A stretch of DNA of 26,431 nucleotides from a virus: IMG/VR virus record IMGVR_UViG_3300008217_000070, positions 1 through 26,431 of that record; one strand, written 5' to 3'. The notes beneath the pieces are model-generated. The model was given only the letters and a program-made list of their open reading frames with translations, searched no databases and had not been told where the DNA came from. The first letter of the stretch is position 1; every line of letters starts with the position of its first letter. Shown one piece after another: positions 2,764 through 18,849 of the stretch. The translations under genes were made by a program, and so were the position numbers.

Positions 2764-3339
2764 TTATTCTCCTTTCACTGCTTGTTTTTCATGTGACATT
2801 TCATCTATCTTATTCATGCAGTTTTCGTAGTTATTAGTATTAATCTCCATCTTTGAAACTTTAGCCTTTAGGTCATCAATAAATTTCTTACCTAAAGGTT
2901 TAGCAAAATCATAGAGATTTTCTTCTTCCTTTGGTGTTAACGCATCAGGCTCAGGTAAATCTTCTCCTGCAAATATATATAAACCTAAACCATGTAATGC
3001 TATACATTTTGCTAAAGCTCTCTGTAAGCTAGTATTTATATGAAAAGAATTTGGATTTTCTATTGGTTGGTTTCTATTATCTAGTACAGGATGTACTTGT
3101 GATAAGGAAACATTATCAACATCTACCCAAACCTCTACAAAATACCCACAACTTGTTTTAAAGAATGGTGAACCATCCTCAGCTTTAGTTACTCCCCATC
3201 TTGCAGTTGGACAAACCTTCTTAAGTTCTTGAACTGCATACGCCCAAGACAAATATGTAAACTTACCTTTCTTTTGAGTATATTTACTAACATCTGTCTT
3301 GAAGAGTTTATTGAATGTGTTTTGTTTTGTGTTACTCAT
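2764..3339 (-). CDS. DUF1071/Sak3-like ssDNA annealing protein
   Basis: A 191-residue protein resembling the DUF1071 group of phage recombinases (Sak3-like, suggested to belong to the Rad52/ERF-like annealing proteins). Recognisable parts are FTYLSWAYAVQELKK near residues 27-41 and the conserved core SLQRALAKCIALHGLGLYIF with AGEDLP at 104-129. Such proteins anneal complementary single strands during phage recombination and repair. The C-terminal third is a charged helical region. Its neighbours fit: an SSB-like protein follows one base after the stop and a RecB/Cas4-like nuclease precedes it. ATG 3339 has AGGAG seven bases upstream. The leader before this gene contains structured element B. 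Confidence 0.8.
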   Translation of the reverse strand: MSNTKQNTFNKLFKTDVSKYTQKKGKFTYLSWAYAVQELKKVCPTARWGVTKAEDGSPFFKTSCGYFVEVWVDVDNVSLSQVHPVLDNRNQPIENPNSFHINTSLQRALAKCIALHGLGLYIFAGEDLPEPDALTPKEEENLYDFAKPLGKKFIDDLKAKVSKMEINTNNYENCMNKIDEMSHEKQAVKGE

Positions 3340-3356
3340 TTTACTCTCCTATGTTT

Positions 3357-3424
3357 ATATGAAAGACTGCCTAGGTCATTCGGCAATACTCTGCTAGGAC
3401 ATTCGGGTCTTACATCTCTCATAT
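3357..3424 (-). ncRNA. Structured leader element (element B)
   Basis: The gap between the nuclease and annealing-protein genes is closed by a 10-base inverted repeat. On the minus strand ATATGAGAGA pairs with TCTTTCATAT, with one G-U wobble. Inside are an AGAC/GTCT pair, a TGCC/GGCA hairpin, and two imperfect direct copies of CCGAATGNCCTAG. It ends ten bases before the ribosome binding site of the annealing-protein gene, so it is placed to act as a translational control element or processing site. No T-run follows it. Confidence 0.5.
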
Positions 3425-4212
3425 TATGTTGGTGGATTACAATGGTCTTTAAATTGACAATAGTTGCACCGCCATTTCTGAACAGGCGATATGCCAACTT
3501 TAAATCCTGGTAATCCCATTTTATGTTCATCGTTTAAATTCCTCCAAAAGAGGTATGCTCTAGACACATATGTCAACGGTACTTCTACAGCCCTCATTGC
3601 AGATGTATCTTTATTATAGTAATACAAATACATACCATCTAATTGTCCGAATTTCTCTTTTACTGCATATCCATATGTTCCTAATTGCAACTCATAATGT
3701 ATTGATGGATTGAATTGTTTTTTCCTACCAAATTTCAATGACCATGAATACCCACCACAAGTCTTAATATCATACAGATAAACTTTTCTATCTTTTGTTT
3801 TATCATCAACAATAATGTCGTAATGCCCCCTAACATTAAGCTCAGGTATAGATAGTTCCCCCTCAGTATGAAACTCAACACTTTTTTCTTTATTATTAAT
3901 TTCTTTATTACTTTCTAGTATGTTACTATTATGTACTTTATTATAGCGTGTGTGCGTAAGAGAATTTTGAATATCATCATGCACAATATTACCTAGTTTT
4001 AGTAATCTTTTAGTTCTGCTATCTATTGGATTTGTTGGCTCAGATTGTTCAACTGATTCGAAGTATAATTTCCTTGAACAAGAGCCTGCACCACTTGCGT
4101 GATACCAACTTTCTTTCCCCTCATATCTTTTAATTCTGTTTTCTTCTTGCTTTTCATTAATGTATTCTTCATAAATACCCTCAATGTCAATAGGACTACT
4201 TTTTAACTGCAT
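3424..4212 (-). CDS. Cas4/RecB-like PD-(D/E)XK nuclease with Fe-S cysteines
   Basis: A 262-residue exonuclease-like protein of the PD-(D/E)XK superfamily. The motifs are in Cas4/AddB order: Cys45 in SCSRKLYF, His79 in KLGNIVHD, Asp132 in GHYDIIVD, Asp148-x-Lys150 in YDIKT, and Gln176 in ELQLGTY. Three C-terminal cysteines, Cys249, Cys252 and Cys258 (CNYCQFKDHC), follow. The four cysteines together suggest a 4Fe-4S cluster as in Cas4. There are no cas genes or CRISPR repeats nearby, so it is best read as the phage recombination exonuclease partner of the downstream annealing protein. The start ATG 4212 has GAGGG upstream. A TTG at 4230 in the same frame is less likely. It overlaps the previous gene by 17 bases. 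Confidence 0.85.
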   Translation of the reverse strand: MQLKSSPIDIEGIYEEYINEKQEENRIKRYEGKESWYHASGAGSCSRKLYFESVEQSEPTNPIDSRTKRLLKLGNIVHDDIQNSLTHTRYNKVHNSNILESNKEINNKEKSVEFHTEGELSIPELNVRGHYDIIVDDKTKDRKVYLYDIKTCGGYSWSLKFGRKKQFNPSIHYELQLGTYGYAVKEKFGQLDGMYLYYYNKDTSAMRAVEVPLTYVSRAYLFWRNLNDEHKMGLPGFKVGISPVQKWRCNYCQFKDHCNPPT

Positions 4213-4360
4213 TAATCTTATCCCTCGCAAACAGTCTTATTAACTCATTCATACATTCGTTTGCTGAATCAAAACCATTCATTATTGATTTTGCTCTAAA
4301 TTTACGCCAGATAAGTTTATCAATATTTTTTATCTGTGTAACTGTTGTCTCGTTACTCAT
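4196..4360 (-). CDS. Ribbon-helix-helix-like small protein
   Basis: A 54-residue gene. The segment IDKLIWRKFRAKSIMNG, followed after a short gap by ANECMNELIRLF, resembles the ribbon-helix-helix pattern of CopG/Arc-type or plasmid-type DNA-binding proteins: a beta strand with a Leu-Trp-Arg-Lys-Phe core, then two helices. It may be a repressor autoregulating this cassette; that is inference. ATG 4360 has AGGAG ten bases upstream, and the gene is the first after the promoter at 4388-4416. Its end overlaps the nuclease start by 17 bases, suggesting coupled translation. Confidence 0.65.
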   Translation of the reverse strand: MSNETTVTQIKNIDKLIWRKFRAKSIMNGFDSANECMNELIRLFARDKINAVKK

Positions 4361-4387
4361 TGTTATAATCTCCTATATATGTTATAA

Positions 4388-4416
4388 AATATAATATACT
4401 TAATATAATATATCAA
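4388..4416 (-). promoter_or_regulatory. Sigma70-like promoter for recombination cassette
   Basis: Read on the minus strand: TTGATA (4411-4416), a 17-base spacer, then TATATT (4388-4393), in the gap before the ribbon-helix-helix gene. This is close to the TTGACA-17-TATAAT consensus and has optimal spacing. The surroundings are extremely AT-rich, so chance matches are possible. Confidence 0.5.
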
Positions 4417-4425
4417 GTGTTATTT

Positions 4426-4611
4426 TTATGTCAATTTATCCAACTTTTGTCTTTGAAGCTCTTTTTGGTAGTTTTTTATGAGGTTTTCTTTCACCTCTAG
4501 CTTTGCCTTAAGTTCATCCATTTGCTCCATTAATAAGGCAATTTCACGCAAATAAATGCTATCCTTATCATTTGAGCTAAGTTCTTTCAGTAATCTACTA
4601 ACTAAATCCAT
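4426..4611 (-). CDS. Small coiled-coil protein
   Basis: A 61-residue protein made almost entirely of one long amphipathic helix (IALLMEQMDELKAKLEVKENL, continuing to QKELQRQKLDKL). Leu, Ile and Met recur about every three or four residues, so a dimeric coiled coil is likely. ATG 4611 has GAAAGGGG five bases upstream. It lies between structured element C and the promoter of the recombination cassette. No function can be assigned. Confidence 0.65.
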   Translation of the reverse strand: MDLVSRLLKELSSNDKDSIYLREIALLMEQMDELKAKLEVKENLIKNYQKELQRQKLDKLT

Positions 4612-4630: not shown

Positions 4631-4713
4631 TTCAAAGGAGCTTCACAGCTACTTCTTGCGTTCACCACTACATGTCCACGACTTACAGTTTCAATGATAT
4701 TAGCTCCTTTGAA
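4631..4713 (-). ncRNA. Long-stem structured element (element C)
   Basis: A perfect 12-base inverted repeat, TTCAAAGGAGCT at 4702-4713 and AGCTCCTTTGAA at 4631-4642 (minus-strand reading), closes a 59-base interior without a gene. The stem pairs a Shine-Dalgarno-like AAAGGAG with its complement CTCCTTT. Inside, GTC-GTG-GAC and other short pairs are possible. It starts right after the stop of the membrane-protein gene and ends shortly before the next gene's ribosome binding site. No T-run follows, so termination is not the obvious role. Confidence 0.55.
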
Positions 4714-4722
4714 AGTGTCTCA

Positions 4723-5403: not shown

Positions 5404-5432
5404 GTTATTCTCCTTTTGTTTTGTTAAAATGT

Positions 5433-5567
5433 ATGCGAGTGTCAAAAAAGACGAGTACAGGAAATAACAATAACCAAAAAACCTGTACTGAAAGGACTAG
5501 GAATGAAAACAAACCTAGATACACGTTACGCCCCGTCTGTGGTCACCCTACAGCTCTCCACTCGCAT
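5433..5567 (-). ncRNA. 135-base multi-branched RNA element (element D)
   Basis: A gene-free region closed by a perfect 9-base stem (minus strand ATGCGAGTG at 5559-5567 with CACTCGCAT at 5433-5441). Inside, on the same strand: a hairpin CTGT-A-GG-GTGA-CC-ACAG with a GNRA tetraloop and one bulged A; a 5-base AGACG/CGTCT pair enclosing two further hairpins; CTAGG/CCTAG with a 12-base loop; and AGTACAGG/CCTGTACT with a 20-base loop, followed directly by CGTCTTTTTT. The first and second stems share one or two bases and may alternate. This is far more pairing than expected for an AT-rich spacer. It may be an independent small RNA or a cis element. The last hairpin and T-run could also terminate. 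Confidence 0.62.
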
Positions 5568-16063: not shown

Positions 16064-18076
16064 ATGATTGAACAAGATAAAAGAGCAACAGAGATAAAAG
16101 AACTTTGGAAAAGATGGGATGATGCTCGTAAAGAGTGGGCTGACCATGCAAGAGAAGATATTGATTTTTATTTAGGTAATCATTTTAGTGAAGCAGAACA
16201 AAGTGAATTGGAATCAAGAAATCAATCAAATATACCTTTAGATAGGATTTATTCTGCTATTGAACAGTTTAAGGCTATTATAACATCTAAACCTCCAAAA
16301 TTTTCGGCTATGCCGAGAGAAGACTCAGATAGCGATTTAGCTAATGTATGGAAAACAATACTTGAATATATATGGAATATATCTGATGGTAATGAAATTT
16401 TCAAACAGGTTGTGCATGATTATGCAGTTACAGGATTAGGATATTTTTATGCATATACTGATATTGAAGCTGACTATGGTAGAGGTGAAATTAAATTTAC
16501 CTATGTAGACCCGTTTAGAGTTATTGTAGACCCTAATGCTAGAAGTAGATATTTTGATGATGCAGCAGGAATGATGCTGTCAACTATATTTACTAAATTT
16601 CAATTGTTAGATTTATATCCTCAATTAAGCGAAGAACAAGAAGATGGAAAACAAATGATTGATTTAATTGAAGGATATTATGAAGATGATACATACCCTT
16701 CTCCTCTTAATAATAGAATTAAAGGAAGTTTTACTCCTGATTATATAAAAGATGCTGATAAAGGAGAAGGTTCTGAAAAATATCAATTAATAGAGTATTT
16801 CCATAAAGTGAAAGTTCCATATTATAGAATACTTAATATGGAAACTCAAGAAGAAAGAATATTAGATTCTAAAAATATGGAACAATTCTTATCTGACGAT
16901 AAGGTTAAAGGTGCTGTTGAAGCTGGCGTAATTGATATAGTAGAGGTTACACAAACAAGGATTCAATTAACTTGTATTCTTGGTCAAACAATATTATATG
17001 AAAGAATTTTAAATACAGATAAATATCCTATTATACCTGTTCCTAATATATGGACAAATACTCCATATCCAATGAGTGATGTTAGGAAAAATAAAGATTT
17101 TCAAAGATTTTTAAATAAAACAATGTCTTTAATTACATCTCATGCACAAGCATCTTCAGGATTAAAATTACTTATTCCTCAAGGAAGTGTTGATGATATA
17201 GAGGAATTGGAAAGAGATTGGGCAAATCCAAATGCAACAATTGAATATGACCCATCTTTTGGAGAACCTCATTTTCCATCTCCTCAGCCATTATCTAATT
17301 CAGTAATGCAATTACCACAATTGATTGAAAAGTATATTGATTTAAATATGGGTATATTCGAAATGATGCAAGGTAATACTGAAGTAGCCCCTAAAACATC
17401 ATCGGCAACAATGATGCTTGAGGATTTTGGTCAAAGAAGAAGTAAATCAAAATTAAGAGATATTGAAGGTTCTTTAAGAAGATTAGGGCAAGTTGTTTAT
17501 AATCTATGTAAAGAGCATTATACATATAAAAAAGTTTTTAGAGTTGTACAGCCAAATAATGATATGAGTGAATATATGGTTAATCATTATAATGACAAAT
17601 CTCAGGCTATTGGCGAGATGATGAATGATTTAACTATAGGTCAATATGATATAAACATAATAGGTAATTCAACGATGCCTTCAAATAGATGGGGTGAATG
17701 GTCTATATATATGGAAGCATATCAAGCAGGGCTTATTGATAGAACTGAGGCATTAATGAAAACTGATATATTTGATAAAGAAGGAGTATTGCAAAGAATG
17801 GATATTGTTAATAAATTACAACAACAATTACAGCAAGCTCAAGAAGGAATTAAAAATTTACAAGGTGATTTACAAACAGCTAATAGAGAGTCAGTCTCAG
17901 CTAGGAAACGTACAGAAGTTGAGAAATTCAAAGCTGAACTTAAATCACAGGAATCACAAACTAAGTCTGCTACTAATTTAGCAGTTAGTAAACTTGAAAA
18001 TGCAGTCGACCTCGAAACAGAAAAATTACGTTTACGTAATAAAGCTAACGAGAAATTGCAAAGAAAAGGAGAGTAA
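16064..18076 (+). CDS. Portal protein (P22-like)
   Basis: A 670-residue portal, the dodecameric ring through which DNA enters and leaves. Evidence: the typical N-terminus with WKRWDDARKEWADHAREDID and YLGNHF, the NIPLDRIYSAIEQ block, ITSKPPKFSAMPRE, and YVDPFRVIVDPNAR near 150, all reminiscent of the P22-like portal family. It also has the usual position directly after the large terminase and before scaffold and capsid. The middle has SSATMMLEDFGQRR typical of the stem/clip region. The last 100 residues form a long coiled coil (NKLQQQLQQAQEGIKNLQGD onward), as in portal barrels. Its stop overlaps the scaffold start. Confidence 0.9.
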   Translation: MIEQDKRATEIKELWKRWDDARKEWADHAREDIDFYLGNHFSEAEQSELESRNQSNIPLDRIYSAIEQFKAIITSKPPKFSAMPREDSDSDLANVWKTILEYIWNISDGNEIFKQVVHDYAVTGLGYFYAYTDIEADYGRGEIKFTYVDPFRVIVDPNARSRYFDDAAGMMLSTIFTKFQLLDLYPQLSEEQEDGKQMIDLIEGYYEDDTYPSPLNNRIKGSFTPDYIKDADKGEGSEKYQLIEYFHKVKVPYYRILNMETQEERILDSKNMEQFLSDDKVKGAVEAGVIDIVEVTQTRIQLTCILGQTILYERILNTDKYPIIPVPNIWTNTPYPMSDVRKNKDFQRFLNKTMSLITSHAQASSGLKLLIPQGSVDDIEELERDWANPNATIEYDPSFGEPHFPSPQPLSNSVMQLPQLIEKYIDLNMGIFEMMQGNTEVAPKTSSATMMLEDFGQRRSKSKLRDIEGSLRRLGQVVYNLCKEHYTYKKVFRVVQPNNDMSEYMVNHYNDKSQAIGEMMNDLTIGQYDINIIGNSTMPSNRWGEWSIYMEAYQAGLIDRTEALMKTDIFDKEGVLQRMDIVNKLQQQLQQAQEGIKNLQGDLQTANRESVSARKRTEVEKFKAELKSQESQTKSATNLAVSKLENAVDLETEKLRLRNKANEKLQRKGE

Positions 18077-18819
18077 TGGATAACGCATTAGGAAATGAAA
18101 ATCTTGAAAATCAAGGTGAAATCAAAGATAATGTAGGGCAAGATGAAGCAACACAGAATGGAGAGTCTGGAGATGGTTGGGAATCTCAAGCTAAGTATTT
18201 TCAATCAGAAAAAGATAAACTACATGCTGAAAATCAAACTTTAAAGAAATATGAACAGATTGGACAAATGTTGGAGTCTAGACCTGATATTGTACAAACA
18301 ATATCTGGAATGGTTCAAGGCCAACCAGCACAAACTGAACAACGTATATCTTTAGATAAAGATGAGTTTGACCCTTGGGAAGCCTATAATGACCCATCGT
18401 CTAAGTCGTATCAATTTCGACACCAAGAGTTACAAGACTCTATTAATAACGCAGTTCAAAGTCAAGTAGGACCAGTAGTAGGACAGGTTCAAAAGCAAGT
18501 TGGTATGAATCAACTTACAGGAGAACTTGAAAAAAGAGGATTAAATGAAGAACAAATACAATCATTTTATGAATTTGCTCAAAAGAATCCTGCCGAATAT
18601 GGTATTGATGGTGCAATTAATATGTGGAGTTCTGTGACTCAATCTCAATCTGGTGAAGAAGGACAAAAAACCAATCCATTAGATAACATTCGTCAAAATC
18701 AGAATGTTCCTCAACAAGCTGGAATCCTTAATGGACAACAGCCTGTTAAACAATCTGATGACGATGCTAGGTGGAAAGGTGTATTGTCAGCTTCTAGGGT
18801 TGGGAATAAAATACCATAA
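18076..18819 (+). CDS. Scaffold-like protein
   Basis: A 247-residue acidic, Gln/Glu-rich protein between portal and major capsid, the canonical place for the capsid scaffold. It has a disordered N-terminus (NLENQGEIKDNVGQDEATQN), a coiled-coil segment (YFQSEKDKLHAENQTLKKYE), a middle with FDPWEAYNDPSSKSYQFR, and a short C-terminal end (DDARWKGVLSASRVG) that could bind the capsid protein. There is no visible protease motif. Its start overlaps the portal stop by one base, and GGAG lies upstream. Confidence 0.78.
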   Translation: MDNALGNENLENQGEIKDNVGQDEATQNGESGDGWESQAKYFQSEKDKLHAENQTLKKYEQIGQMLESRPDIVQTISGMVQGQPAQTEQRISLDKDEFDPWEAYNDPSSKSYQFRHQELQDSINNAVQSQVGPVVGQVQKQVGMNQLTGELEKRGLNEEQIQSFYEFAQKNPAEYGIDGAINMWSSVTQSQSGEEGQKTNPLDNIRQNQNVPQQAGILNGQQPVKQSDDDARWKGVLSASRVGNKIP

Positions 18820-18849
18820 ACTAGAATATAACAAAAAGGAGATGTCATA

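Follow-up and report, generated by a model that had tools for sequence, protein, structure and literature searches.

Element D, at positions 5433-5567 of a 26.4-kb virus record (IMG/VR record IMGVR_UViG_3300008217_000070, analysed over its whole length of 26,431 nucleotides and referred to below as the window), is a real folded RNA whose base pairs have been preserved by compensating mutations. Judged by sequence and covariance searches, it represents an RNA family that is absent from Rfam 15. The window contains phage genes, among them those of a terminase and a major head protein, and its minus-strand early region encodes a Sak-like annealing protein and a Cas4-like exonuclease. Element D lies in this early region, flanked by a gene of 55 amino acids (aa) and a gene of 115 aa (Table 1).

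Covariation and consensus structure

The structure of element D is carried by four helices shared across the family (P1, P2, P5 and P3) and was evaluated on an alignment of 23 members, all of them distinct sequences. In this alignment, which was fitted to the model, 93% of the cells are paired and 22 of the 25 pairs show double-sided changes, compared with 15.0 +/- 1.5 in shuffles and at most 11 in slid controls; the covariation score is 0.607 versus 0.161 +/- 0.016. The functional minus-strand RNA proposed by the original prediction, which had been made from the window sequence alone, is thus supported by covariation. Because the 23-member alignment favours the model, we also aligned 21 members and their flanks with MAFFT, without regard to structure, and folded this alignment with RNAalifold. 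Unaided, RNAalifold recovers P1, P2 and part of P5, with compensatory changes in 12 of 18 pairs, and 96% of the cells are paired, against 38-50% when the alignment is slid. It should be noted that the pattern scans described below required three motifs (AGU-R-GAGA, CCUUU and UUGA-Y-ACU), so that their invariance in the later members is partly by construction, and the evidence for GAGA/UUGA is unbiased only in the eight members obtained without such scans. The scans placed no constraint on the outer P1 pairs, on P2 and its GNRA loop, or on P5 and P3, all of which covary.

Folded with eight-base flanks, element D reaches -43.1 kcal/mol, compared with -31.4 +/- 3.6 kcal/mol for dinucleotide shuffles (z -3.27), and one of 200 shuffles is equally good. 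The antisense strand comes close to the sense strand in this respect (mean z -2.07 versus -2.58 over the 23 members), so that folding energy alone gives no strand. The strand was therefore assigned from the GNRA loops, the G-U pairs and the orientation of the neighbouring genes: as anticipated from the window, the loop is GNRA on one strand, with the sequence GUGA or GCGA in the sense of the flanking genes.

Members of the family are about 85-140 nucleotides long. Their 5' half consists of P1, GAGA(G), P2, a C, the 5' strand of P5 (RRGGNN) and a variable linker, and their 3' half of P3, CCUUU, an optional P4, the 3' strand of P5 (NNYCUY), UUUGA and P1. P2 is built from about four pairs, a UA bulge, two pairs and the GNRA loop, and P5 encloses P3 and the unpaired CCUUU. 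The stem of P3 is wholly different in sequence between clades, with its pairing retained, and its loop often contains UUCAU. P4 is restricted to the window, identical copies of it and the related contig L007. All of the strands originally described for element D were found in place on the minus strand. However, the AGACG/CGTCT stem proposed to enclose the GNRA hairpin was in the wrong register, as its bases are needed by P2; the conserved enclosing stem is P5, GGGGCG with CGUCUU. Likewise, the eight-base hairpin followed by a T-run is indeed present in the window, where it forms P4, but it is lineage-specific and not a family-wide terminator, since most other members have a short linker there.

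GAGA faces UUGA in the model and could form two tandem G-A mismatches followed by G-U and A-U pairs. A K-turn was considered for these nucleotides, but the G-U and A-U pairs continue beyond, and tandem G-A mismatches in an extended P1 fit better. A pairing of GUGA with UCAU of the P3 loop was rejected because members with GCGA retain UCAU. The loop of MS2-type operators is ANYA, and such an operator was rejected for the bulged-A hairpin, the loop of which is GNRA.

Table 1. Positions of element D, its parts, the adjoining genes and associated RNAs (window coordinates unless a contig is named)
Feature	Position	Strand	Remarks
Whole element D	5433-5567	-	RNA read 5567 to 5433; covariance model R1 match 5566-5434, 44.6 bits; aligned among 23 members
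P1, 5' strand AUGCGAGUG	5559-5567	-	Double changes in 5 of 8 modelled pairs; 96.7% of cells paired
P1, 3' strand CACUCGCAU	5433-5441	-	9-bp closing stem with AUGCGAGUG
J1/2, GAGA	5555-5558	-	Faces UUGA; RNAalifold pairs 21-145 and 22-144
P2 hairpin, CUGU-A-GG-GUGA-CC-ACAG	5537-5553	-	GNRA loop; bulge reduced from UA to A; all six pairs covary
P5, 5' strand GGGGCG	5529-5534	-	Conserved enclosing stem
P5, 3' strand CGUCUU	5448-5453	-	Double changes in six of six pairs across the family; 86.7% of cells paired
P3 hairpin, CUAGG/CCUAG	5497-5518	-	5 bp; UUUUCAUU in loop
Unpaired UCCUUUC 3' of P3	5490-5496	-	CCUUU kept in seed members; imposed by pattern in IMG/VR scans
P4 hairpin, AGUACAGG/CCUGUACU	5454-5489	-	8 bp; lineage-specific insertion
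J5/1, UUUUGA	5442-5447	-	UUGA precedes P1
Upstream gene, 55 aa	5571-5738	-	Stop codon 3 nucleotides ahead of P1
Downstream gene, 115 aa	5056-5403	-	Predicted coiled-coil-like; no PHROG match
Shine-Dalgarno AAAAGGAG of the 115-aa gene	5410-5417	-	Between element D and gene start
Family X RNAs	L008:4538, L011:2504, L012:4542, L015:616, L018:53, L027:700, L048:59, L110:5331, L154, L158:320, L163:9310, L166, L168, L172:1952, L175
Hammerhead cores (CUGAUGAG)	L016:1432, L042:1202, L044:835, L090:4907	+
Family Z RNAs	L014, L018, L019, L021, L022, L026-L028, L031-L033, L035, L036, L047

Distribution and novelty of the family

A search with a 19-base core returned three near-identical contigs. Relatives of the annealing protein led to L007 (81% identical) and, with nhmmer, to L011-L013, in which P1, the GNRA hairpin and the 3' end are preserved and P4 is missing. 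A structural descriptor requiring P1, the UA-bulged GNRA hairpin and P5, with linkers of no fixed sequence, retrieved L042, L044 and L100, the primary sequences of which are different almost everywhere; L042 and L044 had first been noticed by eye and with a looser descriptor. The covariance model R1 was built from a seed of seven sequences, trimmed and aligned by hand because direct MAFFT alignment of all members misaligned P3. With R1, seed and near-seed members score 40-72 bits and the next match 14 bits (520 kb searched). The window scores 44.6 bits with this P1-P2(GNRA)-P5-P3 model, being a seed member and so partly by construction. Two pattern scans of IMG/VR (AGTAGAGA...CCTTT...TTGATACT and AGTGGAGA...CCTTT...TTGACACT) yielded 72 loci, and R1 found 23 of the 69 newly fetched ones at 28-72 bits, the next scoring 17.8 bits. 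Over R1 and a second model, R2, non-seed members score 28-66 bits and the best non-members 14-22 bits, the higher-scoring non-members coming from the preselected pattern hits. The search of 59 loci with R2 added no members and yielded one divergent additional copy in record G035 (L195:1505-1575, minus strand), in which P2, P5, P3 and UCCUU are present, GAGA/UUGA is absent and the closing stem is AAAUGAGAG/CUCUCAUUU.

Relatives of element D thus occur in about 22 other environmental phage contigs, some at the gene junction seen in the window and others at unrelated junctions. Nearly all of the D-bearing records that were searched whole contain a single copy, and one contains two. Among the close relatives of the window phage, the element is confined to a minority; the records of most lack it. 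Comparison by blastn of the window copy and two relatives with 50,697 phage records gave chance-level fragments only, R2 found no element D in the oyster phage T5S1-k141_653015, Venkman EXVC282S or MEP401, and a limited first look with R2 at 200 bacterial genomes of one phylum found none. None of the eight hits of a GTDB pattern scan has the fold; one of them, from Dictyobacter, reached 22 bits and was rejected as it lacks the GNRA hairpin and its bulge. When the flanking proteins were used as single queries, the scans returned only near-identical copies, L007 and L081.

The first reading of the window had matched the element to no phage RNA class, and this holds: at gathering cut-offs Rfam 15 has no match to element D in the window or in the better-conserved relatives scanned, at E values up to 10 it reports only S774 (18 bits against a cut-off of 48), and at element D in nine further D-bearing loci it gives no match at E values up to 1. 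Literature searches, in which coverage of subscription journals was mostly missing, found no description of the motif. We therefore rate element D as a new RNA family. This claim concerns the family, and the way in which the RNA acts may turn out to be a known one.

Genomic context and neighbouring RNAs

The longest open reading frame (ORF) is on the strand of element D in 20 of 22 upstream flanks and in 20 of 22 downstream flanks. The element usually starts at most about 10 nucleotides from the preceding stop codon, and the next start codon follows at 18 to about 300 nucleotides. The neighbouring genes are unrelated between members (a coiled-coil gene, radical-SAM-like and HNH genes, small ORFs), and no consistent U-tract follows P1 across the family. 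Moreover, the gaps with element D often hold further long-stem structured RNAs or hammerhead ribozymes in tandem, and in several relatives of the window phage the corresponding gaps are occupied by other structured RNAs.

Among these RNAs, family X (GAGAGCCAAYAACUGGUCCU...GGCAAAGGAAUAUGUGAGGCUCUC) has a long closing stem around CCAAYAACUGGUCC...variable insert...AAAGGAAUAUGUGAGG and no Rfam match. Its 15 distinct copies are often in tandem with element D; they share its gap in L154, L168, L172, L175 and L110 and lie elsewhere in L158, L163 and L166. The AAAGGA of family X is the complement of the UCCUUU of element D. Family Y (AUAGAGAGUCAGYGAYUGGUCACGCACAAGGGAAUAU...CAGGUAGAGCUGAUGGCUCUCUAU) occurs in L024, L025 (4296-4371), L043 and L049 with a small gene downstream. 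Family W is a hairpin (GGGYAUNNGAGAGC...GCUGUCGGACUCNNRUGCCC, with a conserved 3' bulge GUCGGA) found on the minus strand of the window at 1828-1871, at about 7480 in L007 and at about 5335 in L011. Family Z is a long hairpin with internal GUAAUGUC ... UUUAGAAA, preceded by ACCNUUUUAA and located ahead of an early gene. A further multibranched RNA is located on the minus strand of the window at 4631-4714, with the closing stem UUCAAAGGAGCU/AGCUCCUUUGAA, upstream of a 61-aa gene; L011 and L012 carry an X RNA in its place.

The hammerhead motifs consist of GCCGUC^A, a covarying stem I, CUGAUGAG, a one-pair stem II and CGAAAC, with UGUA/UACA loop complementarity; they sit just 3' of the coiled-coil gene and were not reported by the Rfam searches. 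A GOLLD RNA (171 bits) lies on the minus strand of L169 at 4150-4541, about 3 kb from element D, and a tRNA-like sequence with a four-base anticodon call at 3313-3389 of the same contig. Finally, the strongest local folding z-score of the minus strand of the window (-7.8) belongs to 18641-18846, which is antisense to the 3' part of a 247-aa gene (18076-18819) and extends into the gap before the head gene.

Possible role of element D

The conserved fold, its strand sense, the nearby stop codon, the unrelated neighbours, the tandem RNAs and the lack of a U-tract lead us to infer a role in cis. Element D may be a cis-acting intercistronic processing or stability element of the early phage mRNA, a reading to which we give a probability of about 0.45. 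It would be transcribed within a polycistronic early message, usually from the preceding stop codon, as strand and spacing suggest, and would fold autonomously, with P1 closing a compact P1-P2-P5-P3 domain; the fold itself is shown by covariation. It would then set or protect the processed end of its own mRNA segment, and would be neither a ligand sensor for nor a regulator of one particular gene. In phages of the T7 type, RNase III processing sites lie between early genes. Element D resembles them as a structured RNA in an early intercistronic gap, but its P1 of 8-9 bp is too short for a typical substrate, and it is multibranched with conserved loops. Several observations weigh against a processing role in cis: the gene-independent contexts, the single copies, the clustering with other RNAs and the nearby GOLLD fit a trans-acting stable RNA equally well, the proximity to stop codons could simply reflect compact genomes, and most close relatives do without the element. 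We rank processing or protection in cis first, only moderately ahead of a self-cleaving ribozyme, which is followed by a released stable RNA.

A new self-cleaving ribozyme is a less probable candidate. Hammerhead motifs with an intact core and a covarying stem I share the gaps of the relatives, and in L042 and L044 they lie directly before element D on the same strand; hammerheads are already known in phages, including in intergenic regions and early genes (PMC3088659). The CUGAUGA and GAAA core is nevertheless absent from all members. Element D also recalls the hatchet ribozyme, known only from metagenomes and found, like the other classes reported in 2015, through searches in the neighbourhood of genes that accompany known ribozymes (PMC4604424): the two are comparable in size, each has four stems and conserved junction nucleotides, and both have a metagenomic distribution, purely viral for element D. 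Yet element D has no match to the hatchet covariance model even at an E value of 10, nor to any known ribozyme model. An aptamer or a protein-binding RNA would equally show conserved junction nucleotides, the invariance of AGURGAGA, CCUUU and UUGAYACU is partly imposed by the pattern scans, and the second copy in G035 lacks GAGA/UUGA. Slightly more doubtful still is the wider proposal that element D would be one self-cleaving class among several unlisted RNAs (D, X, Y, W and Z) that cut the early polycistronic RNA of one environmental phage group.

About as improbable as a ribozyme would be a stable trans-acting noncoding RNA processed from the early transcript in the manner of GOLLD or ROOL, with P1 joining its ends. 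GOLLD and ROOL are phage-borne structured RNAs of unknown function; they reach several hundred nucleotides and form multimeric cages (PMC12286853). Context independence, the single copy and the clustering with other structured RNAs, GOLLD itself in L169, are consistent with such a role. On the other hand, element D is collinear with the operon and lies very close to coding genes, most loci have no nearby tRNA cluster, and at about 100 nucleotides it is much smaller than GOLLD or ROOL, with an unrelated sequence and structure and no match to an Rfam model.

We consider it rather improbable that element D is the 5' leader of the downstream gene, whether a riboswitch or a protein-binding leader, in which UCCUUU would mask the Shine-Dalgarno sequence AAAGGA. 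Such a sequence does follow P1 by about 16-25 nucleotides in the window, L007 and L011-L013, with UCCUUU as its complement, but AAAGGAG is the usual Shine-Dalgarno sequence of these phages, so that the complementarity is uninformative, and L042 and L044 carry ACCUUU. Furthermore, in most members 80-300 nucleotides separate the element from the next start codon, frequently with other RNAs in between, and the genes downstream are unrelated, with no conserved function. A gene-specific riboswitch is unlikely since the neighbouring genes are unrelated, and a terminator is unlikely since there is no shared U-tract after P1 and P4 is absent from most members. Chance symmetry, DNA-level palindromes or an intrinsic terminator, in each case lacking an RNA function, would suit the similar antisense z-scores and the hairpin followed by Ts in the window. 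The compensatory changes, with register controls that stay at background level, already refute these readings, short of the members having no common ancestry, and a GNRA loop kept on one strand and a P4 with T-run that is not family-wide also speak against them.

The secondary structure of element D is well supported, and the family has no Rfam counterpart. It recurs in unrelated gene contexts, and the phages concerned also harbour hammerheads, GOLLD and several further unlisted RNAs. With a covariance model and about 20 diverse members in hand, its function is testable at once. If any of these RNAs were catalytic, it would be an addition to the short list of natural ribozyme classes.
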